A DNA stretch of 43,691 bases from Xenococcaceae cyanobacterium MO_167.B27. GTDB lineage: Bacteria; Cyanobacteriota; Cyanobacteriia; Cyanobacteriales; Xenococcaceae. The position numbers were made by a program, and so were the translations under genes. The notes below the pieces were generated by a model that saw only the letters and a program-made list of their open reading frames with translations, was not told where the DNA came from and made no database searches. The stretch lies in assembly GCA_030065935.1 (NCBI GenBank), contig JASJCP010000054.1, positions 1 through 43,691 on the forward strand, read 5' to 3'. Shown here piece by piece: positions 1 to 35,718 of this stretch; position 1 is the stretch's first letter; each line of letters starts with the position of its first letter.

Positions 1-175
1 TTATTACAAAATCGCTCTATTTTGGGTTCAATACCTAGATATATTAAGTCTCCTCCCGGGGGAATAGGTAAAGCAGTAATAGGGAATACTGTTCCACCTG
101 AGGCGAAAAATGTGTAAATAATTTTGCCTAGGTACTTATCTGATTCGGTTCGATGGGAATCTTAACATCTTCAGG
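1..175. repeat. Dispersed non-coding repeat
   Basis: No gene is visible before 267. Positions 20-62 match the reverse complement of 34837-34879 over 43 nt with one mismatch (position 24). Positions 109-135 (GTAAATAATTTTGCCTAGGT and following bases) closely resemble 37925-37950. The element contains TACCTAG near 33-39 and CTAGGTA near 129-135, so it has complementary arms about 95 nt apart. It looks like a dispersed repeat family of this genome. No function can be assigned from the sequence, and the left edge lies outside the window. Confidence 0.65.
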
Positions 176-6146: not shown

Positions 6147-8087
6147 TCAGAGTTTTTTTTCCTTGATATACTGTACGATACCTCTGGCAATAGCTTTTGC
6201 TATCTGACGACGGTGGTTAGGGTTTTTGAGTCGAACCGAATCTTCAGCACCAGTCAAAAATCCCACTTCTACCAATACAGCAGGCATTGTTGAATGTCTT
6301 AAGACAAAAAATCTAGCCCGACGAACATTGCGGTTGCGAATAGGGACACTGTTGAGAATATTCCAGTGAATCACCTCAGCCAAACGGCGACCATTTTGAT
6401 AGTAGTAAGTCTCTAAACCATTAACATCAGGACGAGAAAGATTAATGGCATTAGCGTGAATACTGACGAATAAATCTGCATCAATTTTATTAGCTAGATC
6501 GGTTCTACCTTGAAGACTGACAAAGTAGTCTCTATCTCTAGTCATTCTGACTTCTACACCTTGCTTGCGTAACTCTTCTGCTACATCTAAAGAAATTGGT
6601 AAAATAATATCTTTTTCTCTGACACCACCGATCCCAATAGTTCCTGGGTCTTGTCCTCCATGTCCAGGGTCAATAATTACTAATGGTTTATTTTGAGCAG
6701 GGGTAGGGGGTGGAACAGTAATAGGAGATAGTGTAGTTGCTTGACGATTACTTTGGATGGGTAAGGAAATCAGATTGTTGGCTTTTTGATTAATATTGCC
6801 TAAGCGAACTCCTAACCTAGTTGTTACCAAAATTAGGACTGAGGATCCGTCTTGGCGTACTGTAAGTCGAGTCACAGGACTTCCTGCTTTTAATTGGGGA
6901 CCCTGAAAAGGGTCAGCCAATTGAGCATTGTTAATTCTAATTTCATAGACACCATTTCCCAGAGCATTACTACGAGCAATCAAACTGCGATCGCTTTTAA
7001 TCAAGAGTTGAGTATCATTATTGGATAGTTCTAAGCCTTGAACAGTAGTTTGATTAGAATTTAAGGGTCTGGGTCTGGGGGTAGGTGAAGAGCTTGGTAC
7101 TGTGATAGAGTTACGATTCCGAGCGATATTAGAGGTATTTCCTCTGGGAACTAGGAGTAGTCCTCGGATGCGACTGTAAGTAGCTAACCAGTCTGGAGCA
7201 TTTTCTGTAACTTTGAGACTGATGCGAGCATCATTAGAATTAGTCTGGCTAAATTGAATTTCTTGAACCCCATATTGATTAACTGCAACAGTTTTAGAAG
7301 CTAAATCTTGAGGTAGGGTAGTATCTTCTAGGTCAAAGTTAATCTTTGAACCACTGCGACTAAAACGAATTTTCTTACTGCGATCACCATTGATATCTAT
7401 AAAAAAGCCGTGACTAGTTGCTCTAATGTAGGGAGAAGTCTGAGCAACCAAAGTCGCAGTAGAAGTATTGGTTGTAGGTGGTGGTGTTACAGTTCTGGGG
7501 GTGGTGGGTGGTGGTGTAATAGTTCTCGTCGGTGGTAGTGTTACAGTTCTGGGGGTGGTGGGTAGTGGTGTAATAGTTCTCGTCGGTGGTAGTGTTACAG
7601 TTCTGGGGGTGGTGGGTAGTGGTGTAATCTTAGGAGGGACTTTAACAGTGGGTGTCGGACTAGGAGAAGCTATTTCGGTAGTGGCTTGGGGAGTTGAGGA
7701 AATTCTCGGGGTAGGAATTTCTACAGTCCACTGAGTAGGGGATATACCACGGAACTTAACTTGTTGAGGGTCAAGGATATAACCAGGAGCTAATTCTACA
7801 ACTAAGTTCACAGTATCAGGAGTAGATTGACCAATACGGAAGCCTCGAATCGCACCATTATAAGTTTCTCTTACCGTAGTTCTATCCAAAGTTGTCCCTG
7901 GAAGTTCAATTACTAGACGAGTAGGGTTAGAAATCAACTTAGCCCTAGGCTGTACCCCTTCATCAGTGAGAAACTCTAAGCGGTTTTCTCGATTATTAAA
8001 TTCCCAAGACAACAACTTTCCTGCATAAGCAGGAGAACAGTACAGAAAAACACCCAAAATACTTGATAATAGCCAGTGTAATTTCAC
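6147..8087 (-). CDS. N-acetylmuramoyl-L-alanine amidase with AMIN domains
   Basis: This periplasmic zinc amidase cleaves the lactyl-peptide bond of peptidoglycan, probably at division. From GTG 8087 it has 646 residues. A signal peptide (KLHWLLSSILGVFLYCSPAYA) comes first. Next are an AMIN domain (about 25-110), a Pro/Thr linker with near-identical 18-residue repeats (about 155-200), and further AMIN-like beta regions. The C-terminal Amidase_3 domain runs from about 450 to 645. Zinc and catalytic motifs are IIDPGHGGQDPG, a Glu in GVREKDI, SIHANA and LVEVGFLTG. A TTG at 8120 would also be in frame, but it puts 11 polar residues before the signal peptide. It is probably an operon with murI. Confidence 0.92.
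   Translation of the reverse strand: MKLHWLLSSILGVFLYCSPAYAGKLLSWEFNNRENRLEFLTDEGVQPRAKLISNPTRLVIELPGTTLDRTTVRETYNGAIRGFRIGQSTPDTVNLVVELAPGYILDPQQVKFRGISPTQWTVEIPTPRISSTPQATTEIASPSPTPTVKVPPKITPLPTTPRTVTLPPTRTITPLPTTPRTVTLPPTRTITPPPTTPRTVTPPPTTNTSTATLVAQTSPYIRATSHGFFIDINGDRSKKIRFSRSGSKINFDLEDTTLPQDLASKTVAVNQYGVQEIQFSQTNSNDARISLKVTENAPDWLATYSRIRGLLLVPRGNTSNIARNRNSITVPSSSPTPRPRPLNSNQTTVQGLELSNNDTQLLIKSDRSLIARSNALGNGVYEIRINNAQLADPFQGPQLKAGSPVTRLTVRQDGSSVLILVTTRLGVRLGNINQKANNLISLPIQSNRQATTLSPITVPPPTPAQNKPLVIIDPGHGGQDPGTIGIGGVREKDIILPISLDVAEELRKQGVEVRMTRDRDYFVSLQGRTDLANKIDADLFVSIHANAINLSRPDVNGLETYYYQNGRRLAEVIHWNILNSVPIRNRNVRRARFFVLRHSTMPAVLVEVGFLTGAEDSVRLKNPNHRRQIAKAIARGIVQYIKEKKL
7486..7627 (-). 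repeat. 54-nt tandem repeat in the amidase linker
   Basis: The segment GTTACAGTTCTGGGGGTGGT on the plus strand recurs at 7486, 7540 and 7594, a 54-nt period. On the coding strand it encodes an 18-residue Thr/Pro unit (PRTVTLPPTRTITPLPTT) between two AMIN-type regions. Near identity at DNA level indicates recent expansion, and copy number probably varies between strains. Confidence 0.9.
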
Positions 8088-8342: not shown

Positions 8343-8364
8343 TAACCAGAAATTTAAGTTTTTT

Positions 8365-9765
8365 TTATTTGTCAGTTGTTGGAGATGGGGTGGCTACTTC
8401 AGGTTCCTCGAACACTAAACGTAGTAGAGGAGGCGCAACAAAAGTAGTCAGAATTACCATCATAATAATGGCTGCTTCTGTGGATTCTGATAGCGCACCA
8501 CTTGCTGAACCTACTCCAGCAAATACCAGTCCTACTTCTCCTCTAGGAATCATTCCCACACCGATAGCTAGTTTATTAAGACTGTCTTTTCCAAACACGG
8601 TAAAGCCAGTAACTACTTTACCCAAAATAGCTACCACAATCAGGAATGTAGCAATGACCAATCCTTCACGGTTAGTGGGAACTGTAGGATTTAGAACACT
8701 GAGGTCAGTTTTTGCTCCCACACAGACAAAGAAAATTGGAACAAAAATATCAGCTACAGGAATAACTTGCTCTTCCAATTCTTGCCGTTTATCGGTTTCT
8801 GCCAAAATCAACCCAGCAGCAAAAGCTCCTAAAATAGCTTCTAACTGAATTACTGTCGCAATATAGGACAAAGCAAAGGCAAAAATTAGACCAGTCAAAA
8901 GTACTTGACCTCTAGTTTTCATCTCGTTGACCAGTCCTACAATAAACGGACTAATAAAGCGACCTAAAACAATTGAACCAATTAGGAACGCTCCTGCACT
9001 TATAATCAATACAACAATACCAGATATTTCAATCTCTCCAGTTTTGACTAAAGCAGCTACCACGGCTAACACGACGATCCCAAGAATGTCGTCTAAAACT
9101 GCCGCACCGATAATAATCTGACCTTCTTTAGAAGTTAGTTGTCCTAACTCTGCTAACACCTTAGCGGTAATACCAATACTAGTGGCGGTTAAAGCTGCAC
9201 CAGCAAAAATCGCTGGGATAGTAGGAACACCAAATAAATAAACTAAACCAGCAGTACCAGCAGCAAAAGGTACAACCACTCCCACTACTGCTACGACAGC
9301 AGCTTGAGGTCCTACACGGATTAGTTCCTTGAGGTCTGATTCTAGTCCAATTTCAAATAAAAGGATGATTACACCTAATTCTGAAAGTAAGGAGATTACT
9401 TCGCTTTGAGCAGCAAAAACTGAATTTGTAGCTTCGGGTGTTAAACCTGCGGTTTGTTGCAGAAAGCTAATAATTAGAGAATCTTCTGCGGTGCAACCTG
9501 CTTCAGGAAAAACCAGTAAGCGGAAAGCAGAAACTCCCACCAATACCCCACCTACTAATTCTCCTAAAACGGGAGGTAAATTGATACGAGCGCAAATTTC
9601 GCCTCCTAATTTGCTAGCGAAATAGATAATGACCAGGCTGAGTAAAACCCCTGCTAGAATTAGAGAACTATTTTCTGTTTCTGGTTCTGTAGCTGTCGCC
9701 AGCAAAGGAGTTAACCAGGATTTTGTCAGAATCCAATTTTCGTAAATACAAGTGATATCGGGCAT
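8365..9765 (-). CDS. CPA2-family cation/proton antiporter
   Basis: This integral membrane protein of the monovalent cation:proton antiporter-2 family probably exchanges Na+ or K+ for H+. About 12 hydrophobic segments follow an N-terminal stretch. Family signatures include INLPPVLGELVGGVLVG, the core AALTATSIGITAKVLAELGQ, AAVLDDILGIVVLAVV with paired Asp residues, and VPIFFVCVGAKTDLS. There are no C-terminal TrkA-N domains, so it resembles cyanobacterial NhaS3-type antiporters more than KefB. I prefer ATG 9765 (466 residues). ATG-like starts further upstream at 9846 would add 27 polar residues. It is transcribed divergently from the AIM24 cluster and has its own terminator. Confidence 0.88.
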   Translation of the reverse strand: MPDITCIYENWILTKSWLTPLLATATEPETENSSLILAGVLLSLVIIYFASKLGGEICARINLPPVLGELVGGVLVGVSAFRLLVFPEAGCTAEDSLIISFLQQTAGLTPEATNSVFAAQSEVISLLSELGVIILLFEIGLESDLKELIRVGPQAAVVAVVGVVVPFAAGTAGLVYLFGVPTIPAIFAGAALTATSIGITAKVLAELGQLTSKEGQIIIGAAVLDDILGIVVLAVVAALVKTGEIEISGIVVLIISAGAFLIGSIVLGRFISPFIVGLVNEMKTRGQVLLTGLIFAFALSYIATVIQLEAILGAFAAGLILAETDKRQELEEQVIPVADIFVPIFFVCVGAKTDLSVLNPTVPTNREGLVIATFLIVVAILGKVVTGFTVFGKDSLNKLAIGVGMIPRGEVGLVFAGVGSASGALSESTEAAIIMMVILTTFVAPPLLRLVFEEPEVATPSPTTDK

Positions 9766-20657: not shown

Positions 20658-20848
20658 AAGTTGGGTTGTCACAGAATAAGATAGTCTCGCGCAAAGTCGC
20701 AAAGACGCAAAGAGAAACGGGAAGAAAAGGGTTATTTTTTTGAATGCAATGGTGAGGCTTGAGATCACATACCTATTCTCTACTAATACTAAGTTGGGTT
20801 GTCACAGAATAAGATAGTCTCGCGCAAAGTCGCAAAGACGCAAAGAGA
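20658..20848. repeat. 58-nt direct repeat, two copies
   Basis: Positions 20658-20715 and 20791-20848 are the same 58-nt sequence, beginning AAGTTGGGTTGTCACAGAAT and ending GCAAAGACGCAAAGAGA. The 75 nt between them contain no gene. The ends match, in inverted orientation, the repeat at 21218-21252. Together they frame the broken GxxExxY gene. Confidence 0.95.
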
Positions 20849-21217: not shown

Positions 21218-21252
21218 TTCTTTCTTTGCGTCTTTGCGTCTTTGCGCGAAAC
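21218..21252. repeat. Inverted copy of the GCAAAGACGCAAAG repeat
   Basis: TTTCTTTGCGTCTTTGCGTC followed by TTTGCGCGAAAC is the reverse complement, with few differences, of the ends of the 58-nt repeats at 20683-20715 and 20816-20848. It lies 13 nt past the GxxExxY relic stop, so the relic is framed by inverted repeats. Confidence 0.9.
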
Positions 21253-23272: not shown

Positions 23273-23395
23273 AGGATGAGGGATGAAGGATGAGGAAGTT
23301 ATCAGTTATCAGTTATCAGTTATCATCAACCACCCCCAATTCCCTAATTCCCCAATTCCCTAATTTCCCAATTCCCTAATTCCCCATTCCCCAGT
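23273..23395. repeat. Short tandem repeat cluster between tctB and tctA
   Basis: Three kinds of unit lie side by side: GGATGAG/GGATGAA (23273-23295), TTATCAG repeated from 23299, and AATTCCCT/AATTCCCC units from 23339 to 23390. The cluster fills most of the 200-nt gap between two genes that are normally adjacent. Similar units recur at 34740-34840 and in the coding region of the olefin synthase. Confidence 0.85.
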
Positions 23396-23422
23396 CTCCC
23401 TATCTCAAATATCTAATTAAAA

Positions 23423-24923: not shown

Positions 24924-27900
24924 TTAAGGAATTAACTTAGTAGTTAAGGCTACAGCACTACTAATAATTTTGGCAATACCTTGGGGTTCTTCTAAGGGTA
25001 AATTATGCCCTCCAGATAATACTACTTTTTTGGCGTTGGGCATTGCTGCTTGTTGTTCGGTTAAATCTTCGTTGCGGTTCAAGTTACTTTTGTCTCCATA
25101 GACTAGGGTTATGGGTGCTTTGATGCGTTTTAACAATCCCAAATAACGCGATCGCCCGATGCCGTTAAATCCAATACCAGCACGGGTGCGTAATAAAGGT
25201 TCCCAACGCCATCTTACTCCCCCTTCGCAGGGTTCGGTGATTCTTTCTGCTAGCATCATGGCTAATGGTTTAGAAATTGCTGGTGTTGCTTGACGTAGTC
25301 TTTCTGCTGCTGCTTTTACGTCGGGAAATACTGGATGTTCGGGAGGAGCGGCGAGATAATCTAGATGGGTTGCAAGTTGTTCTACTGCTTCTTCTTCTGC
25401 TGCTTCTGTGGGTAAGATAGTTTCAATTAGCACTAGATTTTTGATTGATTTGGGACGAACACTGGCAAAAATTGCTGCAACTACCGATCCTAGGGAATGA
25501 CCTACTAAGGTGAAGGCTCTACCTGCTAGGGCTTCTACTATTGCATCAATATCACCTAGGAAGTCCATTAAATTATACGATCCTCCTTTGCCTACGCGAT
25601 CGCTTCTTCCGTGTCCTCTCAGATCTGGTGCTATGACACGATAACCTTTTTGGGCTAGACGAATTGCTACTTCTGACCAAGCTGCACCTTGTTCTAGTAT
25701 GCCGTGAAGACATAGGACGATCGGCCCTTCTTTTGGTCCCCAAGTACACAGACACACCCGCAAACCCCTAATATTGACTAAGATTTCTTCCATCTTGTGT
25801 TCAATGTCAGAAGTTAATTCTGCTTCTTGGGGAAGTTCATAGTTAAGATTTCTGGAGATATCTCGCGCTAGATAGTTTAAGGGAGCAGGTAGGGTAATTT
25901 GTCGCCAAGCATCTGCTAGTTTGGGGTCTATTTGTTTATGAGTCAAGAAATTCGGATCGCCGATGGACATGGAGGTATTACTTACTCCATCTGTCATGCG
26001 GTTTCCTTGATAGGGTGTTAGTACCGCAGCATTAAAGGGAATTTCTAAAAACTCACAAATTTGTCTCATTACTGTTTCTGGTTGAGACACTAATTCTTCA
26101 TAGTGAACTAGTAAGACTTTATTGCTATCTATTCCTGCTGCAAAATCTAGGATATTTTGGTTACTATGACTCCAAATTGACTCTGCTAGTTGATAAGGGT
26201 CGGAATTTCCCGAGCCAATTAATTTATCCATCCGCATACGAGCGAAAGATTCAATTACTGCATAGGGATGGCGTACTAAATGGATGTATTTGGCGTTGCT
26301 AAATATTGTTTCTGCTTTGTCTAGAGTCTCTCTATTACTGGCGTAGGTAGGAGATTTATCAATTAACAAGCGATCGCCTGCTAGTTGTTGTAACATCTCG
26401 TAGGTTTCTCTAACAGAGAGGTTATTCTCGATTAAATTTTCGACTAGTTTTTGACTTTCGTGAGCATCTATTCCTTTTAATTCCATCAACGCTCGTTGCA
26501 AACCTTCCCCGAGATAGGATACATCTAATTCTTGCTGTCTTTCTCCCATTGTCTCGAATGGTAACAAGTGTAATTCGGGAGGTGAAGCAATATCGGGGTG
26601 TCCTGCTAACATGACTCTTAATAGAGTAGAACCAGAACGGGGACTTGATAAGATAAATGCTATTGGTTTAGTGATTGGGGATTGGGGATTGGGGGATTGG
26701 GGATTAGGGATTGGGGATTGGTGATTGGGGATTGGTGATTTATCGTGGGTTTTGGTGAATTCAGTAGCAAGATATTTAGCTAGACTCTGTATTTTAGGAC
26801 GTTCGTAAAATTCCCTGGGATACAGCATTAACTGTAAGTCATCTTTGAGTTGATTAATTGCTTCCATCAACATCAAGGAGTCCATTCCACGATCGAATAG
26901 ACTTTCTGTAATAGAGAGATTGTCTTTGTCTATATGTAAGATATTTGCGATCGCATTCTGTAAGTAATTTCTGAAGTAGTCTTCTCTAGCTTCTGGGGAT
27001 AGAGCGAGAATTTCTTGATAAACGTCTTTTTGTGCTGTTACTTCTAATGTTTCGGATACAGTTAATAATTCTGAGAAATAATTAGCCTGACGGATGTAAG
27101 GAAATTGTTTACTCAGTGCATCCCAGTCTATAGATAATACTCCTACTTGAGCTAGCTCTGTTGTTAATAATTCTGCTAATGTTTCTAAGCCTTGCTCTGG
27201 TTTAATTAATTCTATTCCTTGACGGTTAAAGTTTTTATTTACCGCCATTCCTGCGTTATCCCAAGCTCCCCAGTTAATACTTAAAGCTGGTAAACCAATA
27301 CTTTTACGATAAAGCGCGATCGCATCTAATGTAGCATTTGCTGCTGCATAATTTCCTTGTCCTGGTGAACCTACTAAGGAAGCGACAGAAGAGAATAAAA
27401 TGAAGAAGTCTAAATCAATATTTTTTGTACATTGATGTAAGTTCCAAGCTCCAATTACTTTAGGTTCTAATACTCTTTGAAACTTCTCCCATGTTTGATT
27501 TTGTAACAATCCATCATCGAGTATTCCTGCTGCGTGAACTATACCTTTTAGGGAAATACTATGGGATGAAATAATGTTTTCTATTGTTGCAATATCGCAG
27601 ATGTCACCCTGGACAATTTCGATGATTGTATCTTTTGCTTCTAATTGGTTAATGGTTTCTGTCCCTTTGGCTGAAGGCTGACTTCTACCGATGAGTACGA
27701 GATGTCTTGCTCCTTTTTCGACTAATAATTGAGCTACTTGTAAACCTAAAGCACCTAATCCACCTGTAATTAAATAGTAGCCATCTGATTTTATTGCTAA
27801 TGATTTACTGTTTATATAATTAACTTTTCTCAGACGAGGTAAATAAATATTGTTTTGTCGCAGTGCTAGATAATCTTCTTTTTCAAGATTATTAATTACA

Positions 27901-30900
27901 GAAAGTATTTTTTCTGCTTCTGCTGTTTCTCTGACAGTATTGAGGTCAATAATTCCCCCATAGTATTCGGGATGTTCACTAGCAATTACTTTACCTAATC
28001 CCCAGATAGAATTACTATTAACACTTGCGGATTTTGCTTTGTCGCTAATATTTTGTGTACCCCTTGTAACAAACCAAATTGGTGCATTAACCGACTGGAC
28101 AAATAAAGTCTTAATCAGATGTAAAATACTGCTGCAATTTTTTTCTTGATAGCTGGTAATGTTTTCTATTGCTAATTCTTCACAGCTAACATTATCCAAA
28201 CTCCAAAGATAGATAATTCCTTTAATTGCAGATTCTTGGGAAATGACTTTCTTAAACTCTGCTAATTGCTGATAATCAATTTGTAAGCTATTTTCGGTAA
28301 TTTTTGTTCTTGCACTTGTGGGATAAACTAAAAGATAACTTTGATTGTGTTGTTGTAATTGTTGAGCGATTTTTTCTCCTAAACCATCTCTATCAGTAAA
28401 GATAATCCATTTACCCGTTCCTGAAAATGCAGGAGTTAAAGACTTAATTTCCTTGCTGCTTTTTTCCCATGCAATTTGATAATAGTCTAATTCCCGCTTA
28501 TCTGAACTACCATTGTGATTAAATAATACTTTTTCTGAATTGCTCAGTCTTAATTGCTCATTCTTTTCAAGCCAATAACTTTGTCTTTGGAAAGGATAAG
28601 TAGGTAGCTGTATTTTATTTCTGGAATAACCTTGATCAAATCCCTTCCAGTTAATAGTTACTCCCTGACTGTATAAAGTAGCTAAACTCTTTAGTATTTG
28701 TGACCAGTCTGATTTACGGGGACGCAGACTAGGTAAGCATAGTGTTTCCCCTCTGGTATGGGGTAGGGTAGAGGACTCATTCTCTAAAATACTGCGTCCC
28801 ATTCCTAATAGTATGGGTTTTGAGCCTATTTCTAAAAATACATTATATTTTTCGGCTTTTAAGTATTCCATTCCCTGGGCAAATTTCACAGGAAAGATAA
28901 CATGATCAACCCAATATTGGGGGTTGGCGATCGCATCTTGGATGCTTTCTCCTGTCACATTAGAAACTAAATTTATTCGGGGTAAAGAATAGCTAATACT
29001 TTGAGCAACTTGTTTAAAATCTTCTAGCATTGGTTGCATCAAAGGGGAATGAAAAGCATGGGAAACGGTTAATTGTTTGCTCTTAATTCCTTTACTATCT
29101 AATTTACTAATTATTTCCCTTACTGCTACAGTATCACCAGAGATGACTATATTTTGTTCTCCGTTGATGGCTGCCACAGAAACTGTATCTTGATAAGGTT
29201 TAATTACTTCATTAATTGTTGCTTCGTCTGCTAACACTGCAAACATATCTCCATTTTGAGGTAATGCTTGCATCAATTTGCTTCTTTCGGCTATTAATTT
29301 TAAACCATCTTCTAAACTGAATACTCCAGCAACAGTAGCAGCTACATATTCTCCTAAACTATGACCCATGACAACATCTGGTTGTATTCCCCAAGATATC
29401 CACATTTGGGCGAGGGCATATTCTACAGCAAAAATGGCTGGTTGAGTATATTGTGTTTGATGTACGGATAATTCACTATTATCCGTATCGGGGTAAATAA
29501 CTTCTGTTAAATTCACCCCCAGATAGGGTTGTAATATCTCTGCACAATCATCTAAAGTTTTGCGGAATGTGGGCTGAGTTTGATATAGTTGATAACCCAT
29601 TCCTTGATGTTGTGAACCTTGTCCTGTAAAGAGAAAGGCTATCTTGTATTTATTGCCTTTATTTATTTCATTACTAAGTATCCCAGGAATTTTCTCCCCT
29701 GACATATAACTTGCGAGTTGCTCTTGTAACTGTGGGATAGACTCTGTGGTAATTGCTAAACGATGGTTAAAATGGGTGCGCCCTGTGTTAGCAGTAAAAC
29801 AGATATCTTCTATAGCTACATCAGGATGATATTGTAAATAGTTTTGATATTGTGCAACTAAATCTTGTAGTGCTGGTTTGTTTTTCGCTGATAAGGTTAA
29901 CAGATGTAATGGACGATTATTTTGCCCTATAGACTTCCTATTTCGCTTCTCTACTGATTTTGCTCCATCTCCCACAATTACATGAGCATTTGTACCACCA
30001 AACCCAAAGGAACTAATACCAGCTAATCTGGGTTTGTCTCCTGCTTTCCAGTCTGTTAATTGAGTCGGAATGGTAATGGGGGTGTTAGTTAAGTCGATGT
30101 GAGGATTTAAGTCATTAAAGTTGAGATGGGGGGGAATAGCAGAATTTTGCAGACATAAAACGGTTTTAATGAATCCTGCAATTCCCGCAGCAGCTTCTAA
30201 ATGTCCGATATTGGTTTTAACGGAAGATAAATAACATAAGTCTTGCTGTTGCTTGTCACTAGTTAATACTGCTTTGAGGGAATTAACTTCAATAGGATCT
30301 CCTAACTTTGTCCCTGTACCATGTGCTTCAATATAACCAATATCTTGGGCTGTGATTCCAGCATTGGATAAAGCCTGACGAATTACGGCTTGTTGTGCCA
30401 AACTATTAGGGGCTGTTAAACCGTTACTCTTTCCATCCTGATTAATTGCTGAACCTTTAACTACTGCTAAAATATTGTCTCCATCCCTCACCGCATCATC
30501 TAAGCGTTTGAGTATAATCACTCCACACCCTTCCCCTCTGACATAACCATCTGCATTTGCATCAAAGGTTTTACATTTTCCATCACCAGCCATCATTCCT
30601 GCTAAAGAGAAGGTTTGAGTTAATTCTGGGGATAACATCAAGTTTACCCCACCTGCGATCGCAGTCTCACATTCTCCCTGCTTCAAACTCTGACAAGCTA
30701 AATGTACTGCTACCAAAGAGGAAGAACAAGCAGTATCTACTGTTAAGGAAGGACCCCGTAGGTCTAAACTGTAGGATAAGCGATTAGCTGCGATACTATG
30801 GGCGTTACCTGTACCAGCATAAGCATCTAATTCTGTCCCGTAATGTAGTTGAAGTTGGGAGTAATCATTAGTACTTATCCCGATAAAGACTCCTGTTGCT

Positions 30901-33233
30901 GTGTTGGCTAAAGCTTCAGATGCGATCGCAGCATTTTCTAAAGCTTCCCAACTAACCTCTAAGAGTAGTCTTTGTTGAGGATCCATTCTTTGGGTTTCAC
31001 GGGGAGTAATGCCAAAAAACTGCGGATCGAACTTATCTGCGTCTGCAATAAAGCCACCGTAATCTGAACCTTTCCAGCGTGTGCTTTTACTTATAGCATC
31101 TTTGCCACCCTTTAATAGTTCCCAAAATGCTTCGGGATTTTTTGCACCAGGAAAACGACAACCCATTCCAATAATTGCTATTGGTTGATTGTTGGTGGTT
31201 AGTTGTTGGTGGTTAGTGGTTAGTTGTTGGTTGTTGGTACTGGAATTAGTTAGATATGCTGCCAGACTGGATATATTTGGGTAGTCATAAATTAGGGTGG
31301 GAGAAAGTTTAGCCTTGAGATAATCTTCCAATTCTGCTGATAATCTGACAGCTTGTACCGAATCTAATCCTAAACTAGCAAATGGTTCTTCTATATCTAT
31401 CTGTTCTGTGCTAACTCCTAATCTCTGAGCTATGTTTTCAACCAACCAAGTTTCAATATGGGATAATTGTGTACGGGTAGTTCGCGCACCACTGCTACTT
31501 GATAACTCATTACTGTTTACTGATTCTCCTACAACCTTTAAATTTCCCCCCAGAAATCCTGCCCTGCAAGCATGACGTTGTATTTTTCCACTAGAGGTTT
31601 TAGGAATGCTACCGGTTTTAATCAGTACTATGGCGTGGGGATTTAATTCGTGGTTTTGTAATACTGCTTTGCGAACAGCTTTAGTAACTGCTTCTACATC
31701 TAAGTTTCTGATATAGGTGCGTTTAACCTCTGGGGTGACAACTAATTTTTCTTCTCCGTCTATTTCTATTGCAAAAGCAGCAACCGCACCAGGGCGAATG
31801 GCATCATGGGCATAATCAACTGTTAATTCTATATCCTGGGGATAATAATTGCGCCCCCGAATAATAATTAAATCTTTGAGTCTTCCTGTAACGAATAATT
31901 CCCCATCTTGAATAAATCCTAAATCTCCCGTGCGTAAAAAATTGACATTGGGGTAGGCTTCTAATTTGGCTCTAAAAGCATATTCTGTAAGTTCTACTTT
32001 GTTCCAATATCCTTGAGCGGTACTAGCACTCTTCACCCATATTTCACCTATTTCTCCATCTTGACACTGCTTTAAAGTATCAGGGTTTACTATGGCTAAA
32101 TATTGTCCTTTAACATTATTACCACAACTAACAAGGGTTACTTGATCGCTTGGGGAAACATTAGTATTTTCTTGTGCTTGATTTTCTTCGAGACTCTGCT
32201 TATCAAAATCTCGGGAAATTGGTTCTGCTTGCTTATTTCCCCCAGTAATAATCAGAGTAGATTCCGCCATTCCATAACAAGGGTAAAAAGCTCTTGATCG
32301 AAACCCACAACTCTTAAAATACTCACTAAATCTTCTAATAGTACTTTCCCTTACTGGTTCAGCACCAGAAAAAGCTAGCTCCCAACAACTAAGATCGAGA
32401 CTGTCTCTTTGTTCTTCTGTAATTTGACTCACACACAAGTCATAGGCAAAATTGGGAGAGCCAGATATATTCCCCCGATACTTAGATATTACTTGTAACC
32501 ACCTATAAGGACGCTGTAGAAAGCTTACTGGTGGCATCATGTACATAGATGTCCCTACATAAATTGGCTGAAGAATACCGCCAATTAGACCCATATCGTG
32601 ATAGGGTGGCAACCAGGAAACTATGCTCTGTCCACGGACAATCTCAAAACAACGATTGATGGAAATAGAGTTAGCTAATAAGTTAGCCTGACTTACCATG
32701 ACTCCTTTGGGTTTTCCTGTAGAACCGCTAGTGTATTGCAGGAAAGCTAAGTTATCAGCTTTTATGAGTGGATTAAGCCAATTATTAGCTAAATTAGATG
32801 CTATAGTATCTGTAGTGATAAATTTTAGCGATTTATTTCCGCTTTCTTGAAACTTACCCTCAATTTTGTCTTGTAAGTCGAAAGTAGTAAGAGCAAATTT
32901 GGCATCCGCATCCGCAACAATGGATAGAAGTCTCTCAATAGAGCGGTTGGCGCGGGGTGGATAAGCAGGTACAGCAATTACACCTGCATATAAACAACCC
33001 AGAAAGGCGATGATAAACTTTAATCCAGGTTGATATAAGAGTAATGCTCTTTCGCCAGTAGCATTGTAGCTCTGTAAGACAGTTGCGATCGCTTTAGCTT
33101 GAGTCTCTAACTGTTGATAACTCAGATTATCAGACTCAGTTTCACCATCCTGTAAAAAAGTAAAAGCAGTTTTTTCAGGTTGTTCGGCTACTATACCTTG
33201 TAATCGGTCGATAAATGTACTGTACTTATCCAA
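24924..33233 (-). CDS. ols: Olefin synthase, type I polyketide synthase (Ols)
   Basis: This megasynthase converts a fatty acid to a terminal alkene by one elongation, ketoreduction, sulfation and decarboxylative cleavage. Domains by residue: FAAL about 1-590 (LQYTSGSTGKPKGVMVS); ACP1 about 595-665 (LGLDS, Ser 622); KS about 685-1110 (DTACSSS with Cys 834, EAHGTG, NIGH); AT about 1190-1500 (GHSLGEY, Ser near 1291); KR about 1815-2000 (GGLGALG); ACP2 about 2070-2145 (GMDSL); sulfotransferase from about 2195 (SSPRSGST); thioesterase from about 2505 (GHSLG near 2578). No DH or ER. This order and 2769 residues match the Synechococcus PCC 7002 enzyme. TTG 33233 follows AGAGGAG. Two linkers carry tandem repeats. 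Confidence 0.93.
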   Translation of the reverse strand: MDKYSTFIDRLQGIVAEQPEKTAFTFLQDGETESDNLSYQQLETQAKAIATVLQSYNATGERALLLYQPGLKFIIAFLGCLYAGVIAVPAYPPRANRSIERLLSIVADADAKFALTTFDLQDKIEGKFQESGNKSLKFITTDTIASNLANNWLNPLIKADNLAFLQYTSGSTGKPKGVMVSQANLLANSISINRCFEIVRGQSIVSWLPPYHDMGLIGGILQPIYVGTSMYMMPPVSFLQRPYRWLQVISKYRGNISGSPNFAYDLCVSQITEEQRDSLDLSCWELAFSGAEPVRESTIRRFSEYFKSCGFRSRAFYPCYGMAESTLIITGGNKQAEPISRDFDKQSLEENQAQENTNVSPSDQVTLVSCGNNVKGQYLAIVNPDTLKQCQDGEIGEIWVKSASTAQGYWNKVELTEYAFRAKLEAYPNVNFLRTGDLGFIQDGELFVTGRLKDLIIIRGRNYYPQDIELTVDYAHDAIRPGAVAAFAIEIDGEEKLVVTPEVKRTYIRNLDVEAVTKAVRKAVLQNHELNPHAIVLIKTGSIPKTSSGKIQRHACRAGFLGGNLKVVGESVNSNELSSSSGARTTRTQLSHIETWLVENIAQRLGVSTEQIDIEEPFASLGLDSVQAVRLSAELEDYLKAKLSPTLIYDYPNISSLAAYLTNSSTNNQQLTTNHQQLTTNNQPIAIIGMGCRFPGAKNPEAFWELLKGGKDAISKSTRWKGSDYGGFIADADKFDPQFFGITPRETQRMDPQQRLLLEVSWEALENAAIASEALANTATGVFIGISTNDYSQLQLHYGTELDAYAGTGNAHSIAANRLSYSLDLRGPSLTVDTACSSSLVAVHLACQSLKQGECETAIAGGVNLMLSPELTQTFSLAGMMAGDGKCKTFDANADGYVRGEGCGVIILKRLDDAVRDGDNILAVVKGSAINQDGKSNGLTAPNSLAQQAVIRQALSNAGITAQDIGYIEAHGTGTKLGDPIEVNSLKAVLTSDKQQQDLCYLSSVKTNIGHLEAAAGIAGFIKTVLCLQNSAIPPHLNFNDLNPHIDLTNTPITIPTQLTDWKAGDKPRLAGISSFGFGGTNAHVIVGDGAKSVEKRNRKSIGQNNRPLHLLTLSAKNKPALQDLVAQYQNYLQYHPDVAIEDICFTANTGRTHFNHRLAITTESIPQLQEQLASYMSGEKIPGILSNEINKGNKYKIAFLFTGQGSQHQGMGYQLYQTQPTFRKTLDDCAEILQPYLGVNLTEVIYPDTDNSELSVHQTQYTQPAIFAVEYALAQMWISWGIQPDVVMGHSLGEYVAATVAGVFSLEDGLKLIAERSKLMQALPQNGDMFAVLADEATINEVIKPYQDTVSVAAINGEQNIVISGDTVAVREIISKLDSKGIKSKQLTVSHAFHSPLMQPMLEDFKQVAQSISYSLPRINLVSNVTGESIQDAIANPQYWVDHVIFPVKFAQGMEYLKAEKYNVFLEIGSKPILLGMGRSILENESSTLPHTRGETLCLPSLRPRKSDWSQILKSLATLYSQGVTINWKGFDQGYSRNKIQLPTYPFQRQSYWLEKNEQLRLSNSEKVLFNHNGSSDKRELDYYQIAWEKSSKEIKSLTPAFSGTGKWIIFTDRDGLGEKIAQQLQQHNQSYLLVYPTSARTKITENSLQIDYQQLAEFKKVISQESAIKGIIYLWSLDNVSCEELAIENITSYQEKNCSSILHLIKTLFVQSVNAPIWFVTRGTQNISDKAKSASVNSNSIWGLGKVIASEHPEYYGGIIDLNTVRETAEAEKILSVINNLEKEDYLALRQNNIYLPRLRKVNYINSKSLAIKSDGYYLITGGLGALGLQVAQLLVEKGARHLVLIGRSQPSAKGTETINQLEAKDTIIEIVQGDICDIATIENIISSHSISLKGIVHAAGILDDGLLQNQTWEKFQRVLEPKVIGAWNLHQCTKNIDLDFFILFSSVASLVGSPGQGNYAAANATLDAIALYRKSIGLPALSINWGAWDNAGMAVNKNFNRQGIELIKPEQGLETLAELLTTELAQVGVLSIDWDALSKQFPYIRQANYFSELLTVSETLEVTAQKDVYQEILALSPEAREDYFRNYLQNAIANILHIDKDNLSITESLFDRGMDSLMLMEAINQLKDDLQLMLYPREFYERPKIQSLAKYLATEFTKTHDKSPIPNHQSPIPNPQSPNPQSPITKPIAFILSSPRSGSTLLRVMLAGHPDIASPPELHLLPFETMGERQQELDVSYLGEGLQRALMELKGIDAHESQKLVENLIENNLSVRETYEMLQQLAGDRLLIDKSPTYASNRETLDKAETIFSNAKYIHLVRHPYAVIESFARMRMDKLIGSGNSDPYQLAESIWSHSNQNILDFAAGIDSNKVLLVHYEELVSQPETVMRQICEFLEIPFNAAVLTPYQGNRMTDGVSNTSMSIGDPNFLTHKQIDPKLADAWRQITLPAPLNYLARDISRNLNYELPQEAELTSDIEHKMEEILVNIRGLRVCLCTWGPKEGPIVLCLHGILEQGAAWSEVAIRLAQKGYRVIAPDLRGHGRSDRVGKGGSYNLMDFLGDIDAIVEALAGRAFTLVGHSLGSVVAAIFASVRPKSIKNLVLIETILPTEAAEEEAVEQLATHLDYLAAPPEHPVFPDVKAAAERLRQATPAISKPLAMMLAERITEPCEGGVRWRWEPLLRTRAGIGFNGIGRSRYLGLLKRIKAPITLVYGDKSNLNRNEDLTEQQAAMPNAKKVVLSGGHNLPLEEPQGIAKIISSAVALTTKLIP
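26670..26740 (-). repeat. In-frame GATTGGG repeats in the ACP2-sulfotransferase linker
   Basis: On the plus strand this stretch is a run of GATTGGGG/GATTAGGG/GATTGGTG units. On the coding strand it encodes a Pro/Ser/Asn/Gln linker (SPIPNHQSPIPNPQSPNPQS) just before the sulfotransferase PAPS-binding loop. The same CCCAATC-type units occur between genes at 34817-34840 and, in related form, at 23339-23390. Confidence 0.92.
31186..31238 (-). repeat. In-frame repeats in the ACP1-KS linker
   Basis: GTTGTTGGTGGTTA-type units on the plus strand encode NNQQLTTNHQQLTTNNQ between ACP1 and the ketosynthase. The repeat resembles intergenic heptanucleotide tracts of this genome. It is immediately followed by PIAIIGMGCRFPG, the ketosynthase start. 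Confidence 0.9.
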
Positions 33234-33819: not shown

Positions 33820-34749
33820 TTGAACATCCACAAAATCTTATTTCCGATTCAACAATTAACTACAGGTCTGCTTCTTGCTAGTTTATGTTCCAGTTCAGTT
33901 TTGGCACAATCTGTACTAAACCGTGCAGAAGTCTATAAAATACGCAACCAGGTAGAAATTAATCGTCGCAATCGGTCAGTTTGGAATCGCGCTAAGTTAG
34001 GAGAAGTAATCATCCCTCAAGATGCAGTGCGGACAGGAGCTAATTCCCGTGCTGAATTGCTATTTAATGAGGGTACATTGGTCAGGACTGGTGCTGGTAC
34101 AATTTTTCGTTTCCGCCCCAATAGACGCAATTTTGAATTAGCTAGTGGTGCTGCTGTGATTATGATTCGCCCAGGACAGGGGGAGAGTAATATTATTACT
34201 CCTGAAGCGAGGGTGGTTTCTCAAGGTACAGCTTTATTCGTACAGCACGATCCTAGAAATAATGCTTCTTTAGTGGGAGTCTTAACTAATAGTCCCCAAG
34301 GTGCAGTTAAAGTTTCTAGTGCTGATGGCACAGTAACCGTTGAACTTAGCGCAGGTCAATTTATTTCTATTGTCAATGGAGTAGTCGGACTGGTGGAACA
34401 CTTCATCTTACCCATGTTTTATGAAACTGTAGAATTGGCTGCTGGTTTGGGTACAGGACAAGAACACCTAGTTGCTGCTGAGTCTCCAGAAGTTCAGGCT
34501 ACTATCAATGCAGTTCGAGAAGAGGTGATCGCGCCGTTAGTCAATCAAATAGCTTGGCTTAATGGTTTTTGTCGCTTTAATGTCAATCCCGAACAACTAT
34601 CCCCACTTCTACAATGGTTAGGGTTGGGTGTCCCTGGTGCAGAAATATCTTTGAGATTACCCCAAACGGATTTATTTGTGATTCCGATGCGTTCTTTGGC
34701 TGGTTTAGCTTGGTTAGGTAACTATTGTCAACAAAGGAATGAAGGATGA
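33820..34749 (+). CDS. FecR-domain secreted protein
   Basis: A signal-like segment (TTGLLLASLCSSSVLAQ) is followed by a FecR-type beta domain: NRAKLGEVIIPQDAVRTGAN, SRAELLFNEGTLVRTGAGT, IITPEARVVSQGTALFVQHD and VELSAGQFISI. FecR domains in cyanobacteria occur in stand-alone periplasmic or envelope proteins with no iron role shown. The C-terminal third is unassigned and contains two Cys. The first available starts are TTG codons. I prefer 33820, which puts the signal near the N-terminus, over 33763. Confidence 0.75.
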   Translation: MNIHKILFPIQQLTTGLLLASLCSSSVLAQSVLNRAEVYKIRNQVEINRRNRSVWNRAKLGEVIIPQDAVRTGANSRAELLFNEGTLVRTGAGTIFRFRPNRRNFELASGAAVIMIRPGQGESNIITPEARVVSQGTALFVQHDPRNNASLVGVLTNSPQGAVKVSSADGTVTVELSAGQFISIVNGVVGLVEHFILPMFYETVELAAGLGTGQEHLVAAESPEVQATINAVREEVIAPLVNQIAWLNGFCRFNVNPEQLSPLLQWLGLGVPGAEISLRLPQTDLFVIPMRSLAGLAWLGNYCQQRNEG

Positions 34750-34836
34750 AGGATCACGGACTCAGAAGAAAGTAATAAGTAATAAGTAATAAGTAACAAG
34801 TAACAAGTAATAACAATCAATCCCCAATCCCCAATC
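34740..34836. repeat. Short tandem repeats: GAAGGAT, AATAAGT and CCCAATC units
   Basis: The FecR gene ends in GGAATGAAGGATGAAGGAT units. These are followed by AATAAGT repeated and drifting to AACAAGT (34772-34810), then AATCCCC units (34818-34836). The tract resembles that between tctB and tctA and in the Ols linker. Confidence 0.9.
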
Positions 34837-34879
34837 CCCCCGGGAGGAGACTTAATATATCTAGGTATTGAACCTAAAA
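34837..34879. repeat. 43-nt dispersed repeat, inverted relative to 20-62
   Basis: The reverse complement of this segment is identical to positions 20-62 except for one base. It contains CCCCCGGGAGGAGACTTAAT followed by ATATCTAGGTATTGAACC. No coding role is visible. Confidence 0.95.

Positions 34880-35718
<839 letters not shown>

Follow-up and report, generated by a model that had tools for sequence, protein, structure and literature searches.

The olefin-synthase-type gene and its heptamer arrays

The window, that is, the whole stretch of 43,691 nucleotides of Xenococcaceae cyanobacterium MO_167.B27 (the source genome) that was analysed, carries a megasynthase gene of the olefin-synthase type (Table 1). 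Its product, protein P0001, showed the Pfam domain order FAAL-ACP1-KS-AT-KR-ACP2-sulfotransferase (ST)-alpha/beta hydrolase, and the complete set FAAL-ACP-KS-AT-KR-ACP-ST-hydrolase that delimits olefin synthases (Ols) is thus present in one protein. The nearest solved chains were those of the CurM sulfotransferase (4gbm and 4gox) for the ST domain and, for the hydrolase, 3qit, labelled 'Polyketide synthase', which we take to be the CurM thioesterase. This layout is that of an olefin synthase, an enzyme that makes a terminal olefin from a fatty acid. Ols and curacin CurM have in common with P0001 the domain order and the best solved ST and hydrolase matches, whereas the point of interest in P0001 is its linkers, the catalytic domains being known here from family matches.

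Table 1. Positions of the megasynthase gene, the domains of protein P0001 and the repeat arrays of the window, and repeat units found in the ACP2-ST linker of six genomes.
Feature	Position	Strand	P0001 residues	Method	Remarks
Megasynthase ORF, olefin-synthase-type	24924..33233	minus			2769 aa (8310 nt), protein P0001
AMP-binding			15-410	Pfam	
PP-binding (first carrier)			596-661	Pfam	
Ketosynthase			683-1039	Pfam	
Acyltransferase			1200-1485	Pfam	
KR			1818-1992	Pfam	
Second carrier			2085-2165	Pfam	
Sulfotransferase			2190-2401	Pfam	
Alpha/beta hydrolase			2504-2750	Pfam	
Heptamer array coding the ACP2-ST linker	26670..26743	minus	2165-2187	Edges by eye; TRF	TRF core 26673-26740
Second heptamer array, coding the ACP1-KS linker	31184..31238	minus	666-684	TRF	AACCACC/AACAACT on coding strand
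Non-coding array	34818..34839	plus		TRF	Unit CAATCCC, the same heptamer as in the ACP2-ST array; period 7
Non-coding arrays	23274..23402	plus		TRF	GGATGAG and AGTTATC (period 7), CCCCAATT/CCCTAATT (period 8/16)
ACP2-ST repeat, source genome					AATCCCC
ACP2-ST repeat, G001					AGTTATC
ACP2-ST repeat, G003					ATTCAGC
ACP2-ST repeat, G008					CATCCCT and 77-nt element
ACP2-ST repeat, G013					GGGCGAA palindrome and CCCTAACC
ACP2-ST repeat, G048					GTAGAGACG palindrome

The linker between the second carrier and the ST domain is encoded by a tandem array with a period of 7, 9.6 copies, 88% matches and a TRF score of 106. The unit AATCCCC of the coding strand corresponds to GGGGATT on the plus strand, where the units GATTGGG, GATTAGGG and GATTGGT were found together with one 8-nt unit, GGGGGATT. 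The array region is read in frame as KSPIPNHQSPIPNPQSPNPQSPITKP (P0001 2165-2190), and the array fills nearly the whole gap from the second carrier model to the ST model. The motif GATTRGGG was present 10 times in the window (2.39 expected), and none of 200 codon-shuffled copies of the gene had a period-7 array with a score of at least 40. In the model of P0001 2060-2420 (31 sequences, mean pLDDT 81), residues 2166-2182 showed pLDDT values below 50 and no secondary structure.

The original prediction, that short tandem repeats sit in frame in the ACP2-ST linker and exactly at a domain boundary, was confirmed by the TRF array, the ORF, the codon shuffles and the gap between the ACP2 and ST models, and its flexible linker agrees with the predicted disorder. 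It described units of eight letters; the true period is 7, these units overlapping by one G, and only the unit GGGGGATT is a genuine 8-nt one. Conservation of the linker peptide across Ols proteins was looked for and not seen, this linker being, by eye, the most variable stretch of alignment A1.

The second array, in the ACP1-KS linker of the same gene, was absent from the list of the original prediction. In the non-coding gap, the complementary CCCAATC units proposed at 34818-34836 were recovered with the same period-7 unit and a slightly larger extent. The units proposed at 23339-23390 are related, but only related, to the heptamer, as the array there (23334-23402) has a period of 8/16. The AGTTATC unit of the same region is also the unit of the ACP2-ST linker of the relative G001.

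Additional repeats were observed in the window. A dispersed element of approximately 95 nt, starting with CCCCCCGGGAGGAGACTTAATATATCTAGG, is located at 34836-34930 (+), directly after the array 34818-34839, and also at 25-53 (-). Its ends can pair (GGAGACTT/AAGTCTCC), folding was no better than that of shuffled sequences (z -1.5), and no Rfam match was found in 34700-35060. The element had at least 42 further matches in the genome (86-100% identity, 40 of them over 71-95 nt) and stands directly beside arrays of the double heptamer GATTGGGG in at least five places (contigs C30, C50, C52, C67 and C86). Three octamer arrays (CGCAAAGA x3, at 20690-20713, 20823-20846 and 21223-21246, the last on the opposite strand) are placed in a stretch without ORFs of at least 150 aa. 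Repeats of 243, 63 and 81 nt, all multiples of 3, occur near the contig end (42778-43539), in a putative frame that looks coding for a Gln/Glu-rich, coiled-coil-like and then acidic protein.

Dispersal of the repeats in the source genome

The exact double unit GATTGGGG was matched 47 times, in 32 arrays, across the source genome, and the backwards control pattern 0 times. Two of the 32 arrays had at least 100 ORF residues on both sides, namely the Ols ACP2-ST array and one in a TonB-like protein; five further arrays lie within a stop-to-stop frame at 10-63 residues from its N-side end, perhaps upstream of the start codon. The family is thus a tandem heptamer with many dispersed copies, mostly non-coding, as in STRR sequences of the GGGGATT type. 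On inspection, neither the AATCCCC nor the AACCACC arrays were self-complementary, in contrast to the palindromic units of Rickettsia palindromic elements (RPE) and GTAG REPs.

When the whole 8310-nt gene was searched against its own genome, with 40 candidate places scored, 57 non-self matches were found among the matches listed, of which 37 fell at two linkers: 19 at gene nt 1995-2062 (ACP1-KS) and 18 at 6494-6569 (ACP2-ST). One example for the ACP2-ST array was 94% identity over approximately 63 nt at contig C50. The identity of the linker DNA with dispersed repeats is an observation. The other 20 of these matches (65-83% identity, in FAAL, KS-AT and linker-domain coding positions) were taken as putative FAAL/PKS paralogues. 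Together with the 32 double-unit arrays, these data support the original prediction in so far as the array is a member of a repeat family dispersed in the source genome.

The AGTTATC family had 94 exact matches in the genome, and none of the 17 array sites covered by 30 of the loci had at least 100 ORF residues on both sides. Only one of the 17 is far from both ORF ends (187 and 90 residues), directly after a carrier domain. This site is in an ORF of 269 aa (L169 1229-2038; G000:C78 ~12185), in which the carrier domain is followed by AGTTATC and related heptamers. The short stretch after them presumably resembles the start of an oxoamine synthase domain; it had no Pfam match, and the ORF is perhaps a remnant of a larger synthase. 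In the TonB-like protein (L077 958-2487; G000:C111 ~1821), the Pro-rich spacer that leads into the TonB C-terminal domain contained GATTGGGG-type arrays; as in Ols, these are translated in the C-rich orientation.

Length of the ACP2-ST linker

Linker length was determined in 31 sequences as the residue count between fixed conserved columns. The ACP2-ST linker has 37 residues in the source gene and 33-73 across the 31 genomes. Fifteen other genomes had linkers of 33-37 residues and no period-7 array there, three of them with 9-nt tandem repeats. The suggestion that STRR expansion changes the spacing was therefore not upheld for the source gene, since its linker equals in length those of 15 genomes without a heptamer array; the array makes up the linker without exceeding the commonest length.

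The accompanying expectation, a linker shorter and repeat-free in other genomes, was borne out only in part: among the five relatives searched against their own genomes, with linkers of 50-70 residues, four had other dispersed repeats at this place and the fifth a palindrome. As a general cause of long linkers, repeats are a weak explanation, as 10 of the 25 sequences without own-genome repeat evidence, most of them from genomes outside the dispersed-copy searches, also had 44-73 residues.

A change of one unit (7 nt) shifts the frame, and simple expansion would consequently do more than alter the spacing; the one 8-nt unit may represent frame compensation. Frame breaks at linkers were considered as a sign of slippage and discarded: the frame changes of G036 occur beyond the KS-linker-domain and ACP2-ST junctions and, in the stretches inspected, outside repeats. 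The orientation of the units was likewise discarded as a bias, since 18 of 23 units are open in one orientation only and stand necessarily that way in an open frame.

Repeats in the Ols genes of related genomes

The Ols genes of five relatives, G013, G008, G048, G001 (MO_234.B1) and G003 (MO_167.B52), were searched against their own genomes, with 40 candidate places scored in each; the nearest relatives compared are approximately 80% identical. Including the source genome, the ACP2-ST linker contained repeats with copies elsewhere in five of six genomes, of different families, and in the sixth (G048) a self-matching palindrome. That differing repeats occupy homologous sites is thus observed (Table 1).

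Repeat matches were found at FAAL-ACP1, KS-linker domain and ACP2-ST in G013; at ACP2-ST in G008; at ACP1-KS, KS-linker domain and AT-KR in G048, the first two matching dozens of other places; at AT-KR, a KR loop and ACP2-ST in G001; and at KS-linker domain, an AT loop (weak, 82% over 45 nt) and ACP2-ST in G003. Palindromes were present at Ols sites in G001, G048 and G013. Among the matches listed, the 28-nt ACP2-ST palindrome of G048 matched only its own reverse strand, and the KS-linker-domain palindrome of G001 only itself and an overlapping contig end; the latter is of the same GTAGAGACG type as the dispersed palindrome in the KR loop of G001. The two overlapping contig ends of G001 are 97.7% identical over 350 nt, and six of their eight differences, including all three gapped bases, are in the KS-linker-domain linker beside the GTAGAGACG palindrome; they may reflect an assembly error.

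Off the linkers, the matches in G008 (8343-8417 and 1930-2030) and G003 (115-153 and 1906-1978) fall within domains that have no inserted residues there and suggest paralogy, and the other FAAL, KS, AT and KR matches of the five genes were taken as putative paralogues. Other PKS ORFs of the relatives carried heptamer arrays at Ols-like sites, placed by eye on motifs and kept out of the statistics: KS-linker domain (L120 and L122), AT loop (L121 and L123) and after AT (L127). Two others were assigned to no such site: an additional array in L121 and, in an AT of L125, a 14-nt repeat.

Placement of repeats across Ols genes

Ols genes were obtained from 34 of 60 genomes, of which 33 gave 40 ORF pieces passing the filter (269,670 nt) and one (G039) gave none. 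TRF detected 23 period-7 arrays in 15 genomes, after one array in a leader before the start codon (G024) was dropped from the count; 18 of the 33 genomes had no period-7 array at a score of 40. Seventeen of the 23 arrays were located in four short gaps (FAAL-ACP1, ACP1-KS, KS-linker domain and ACP2-ST; 95 of 2769 residues), against 1.46 expected, and 0 of 5000 random placements reached 17. Any inter-domain gap contained 18 of the 23 (5.84 expected; 0 of 5000). Four arrays were placed in two loops, three in AT 1245-1256 and one in KR 1888, and that of G003 at 2164-2165 is one residue outside the ACP2-ST gap. Two reservations apply to these counts: the related genomes are not independent, and the KS-linker-domain gap and the two loops were defined once repeats were already known there. 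If the KS-linker-domain gap is left out, 14 of the 23 arrays fall in 73 residues. Other tandem repeats (n = 34) were less bound to these sites: nine were in short gaps, still more than the 1.93 expected, and 11 in any gap (8.60 expected), with no excess in the latter.

The shortest period was not a multiple of 3 in 29 of 34 repeats at the four gaps and two loops and in 7 of 23 elsewhere (Fisher p 5e-5), which argues for a DNA-level origin of the repeats at these sites. In 23 of 23 arrays, lag-7 identity lay above that of synonymous recodings of the peptide, of which no more than 8 in 1000 attained the value of the array, a result to be read with the caveat that TRF selection itself favours high periodicity. 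The eight ACP1-KS arrays had eight different commonest units, some of which (AACAACC, AACAATC and AACCATC) are alike and could share descent.

Four linkers of P0001 that are repeat sites are predicted to be disordered: besides 2166-2182, pLDDT values below 50 were obtained at 655-681 (ACP1-KS), 1092-1107 and 1487-1494, in a weaker model of residues 655-1510 (27 sequences, mean 76) that also shows low stretches inside KS and in which the AT loop is not below 50 (block mean 65).

Origin of the linker repeats

It is probable, in our view, that coding DNA retains dispersed repeats mainly where a linker tolerates them. The linker DNA would either have been copied from the short repeats dispersed in these cyanobacterial genomes or have grown out of similar sequence; these repeats are heptamer STRRs and, in relatives, also small palindromes. 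Such repeats would arise or land widely and, inside genes, persist mainly where an unstructured insert is tolerated, in Ols the FAAL-ACP1, ACP1-KS, KS-linker domain, AT-KR and ACP2-ST linkers and the AT and KR loops. Seven being one more than a multiple of three, a stop-free heptamer array is open in all three frames and gives the same seven-residue peptide in each. The frame of entry is therefore irrelevant, provided that the net length, in multiples of three bases, preserves the downstream frame. Entry may have occurred by copying or by local duplication, and survival would be due to tolerance rather than benefit. No insertion paired with an empty site was caught among the genomes compared.

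A wider claim is that heptamers are frame-free linker makers: giving a stop-free, mostly polar heptapeptide in any frame, they would provide a steady stock of flexible tethers, which megasynthase boundaries would take up, exchange and resize again and again, with repeat turnover as an evolutionary engine of carrier-partner spacing. We regard this extension as rather doubtful.

It is unlikely that the array is kept as a tunable or switchable linker, in which slippage alters the spacing in steps of three units or frameshifts the enzyme on and off in the style of a contingency locus. Each step of one 7-nt unit does shift the frame, ACP2-ST length is spread over 33-73 residues in 31 genomes, and the contig ends of G001 differ mainly in a linker beside a palindrome. 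However, the imperfect units (88% match) should damp slippage, the source linker is in the shortest length class, and no array is conserved at ACP2-ST, since relatives carry unrelated repeats or none. Moreover, the sole frame change seen close to this linker (G036) is downstream of it and outside any repeat. That the linker shows no frame break in the 31 sequences of the alignment is no test of switching, because only open frames had been taken into the set.

Proline-rich linkers are common in multidomain enzymes, and a Pro/Ser/Asn/Gln tether, polar and predicted to be unstructured as here, might have been selected as a peptide, the DNA repeats being a by-product of local slippage unrelated to the intergenic ones. 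This is very improbable and, for the DNA, largely refuted: the period of 7 is not a multiple of 3, lag-7 identity is above that of synonymous recodings in all 23 arrays, and the ACP2-ST array matches 18 other places in the genome among the matches listed.

A nucleic-acid role, with (GGGGATT)n forming a G-quadruplex on the template strand and tuning transcription through the long gene, is scarcely credible. In its favour, antiparallel quadruplex signals were seen by CD in KCl for (GGGGATT)4 oligonucleotides from Nostoc PCC 7120 (PMC4692102), and the G-rich strand is the template in the Ols gene. Against it, the repeats found at ACP2-ST in the relatives (AGTTATC, ATTCAGC or CATCCCT units, or palindromes) lack such G-runs, and the second array of the same gene is AACCACC/AACAACT. 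As a common reason for the arrays it was rejected, most of the relatives' units at this site not being G-rich.

Comparison with known repeats and significance

RPE are in-frame repeats of unrelated proteins, located where insertion is tolerated, and their palindrome families enter many proteins. In Ols, by contrast, a single protein family has taken up many repeat families at a small number of recurring sites.

In the available text of PMC4692102, Nostoc sp. PCC 7120 is described as having GGGGA(C/T)T heptamers in 89 arrays, 68% of them intergenic, and the heptamer oligonucleotides as forming quadruplexes. The array of the source genome matches this sequence class by its unit, and both are tandem, dispersed and mostly intergenic. 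Intragenic heptamer copies were already known, because only 68% of the PCC 7120 arrays are intergenic; in the available text they are unplaced relative to protein domains, whereas here they are in inter-domain linkers of one family, and the heptamer occupying a given site differs between species.

The GTAG/CGTC REP palindromes are another example of small dispersed repeats within genes. As their authors suggest in the available text, such insertions could be neutral if they fall in a loop or a flexible linker (PMC3733652). The Ols genes of G001 and G048 contain GTAGAGACG-type palindromes, which may belong to those REP families. In contrast, the arrays of the source genome are non-palindromic heptamers, and here recurrence at homologous sites by different families was measured. 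No literature on heptamer repeats in megasynthase linkers was found, which is weak evidence of absence, since subscription journals were thinly covered; the available text of a Pleurocapsales comparison (PMC7381351) has no mention of 'tandem repeat' or 'repeats'. Intragenic repeats in linkers and loops are thus a known kind, and what is new is that different families recur at the same few megasynthase sites.

The five linkers and two loops, in many species, constitute a natural map of insertion tolerance in the FAAL-PKS-ST-hydrolase assembly line. Linker choice is an obstacle in polyketide synthase engineering, and such a map would help it. A DNA repeat of seven bases can act as a protein linker in any reading frame. 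On the other hand, caution is advisable, as the linker peptides of cyanobacterial megasynthases may record the history of genome repeats and not protein function.
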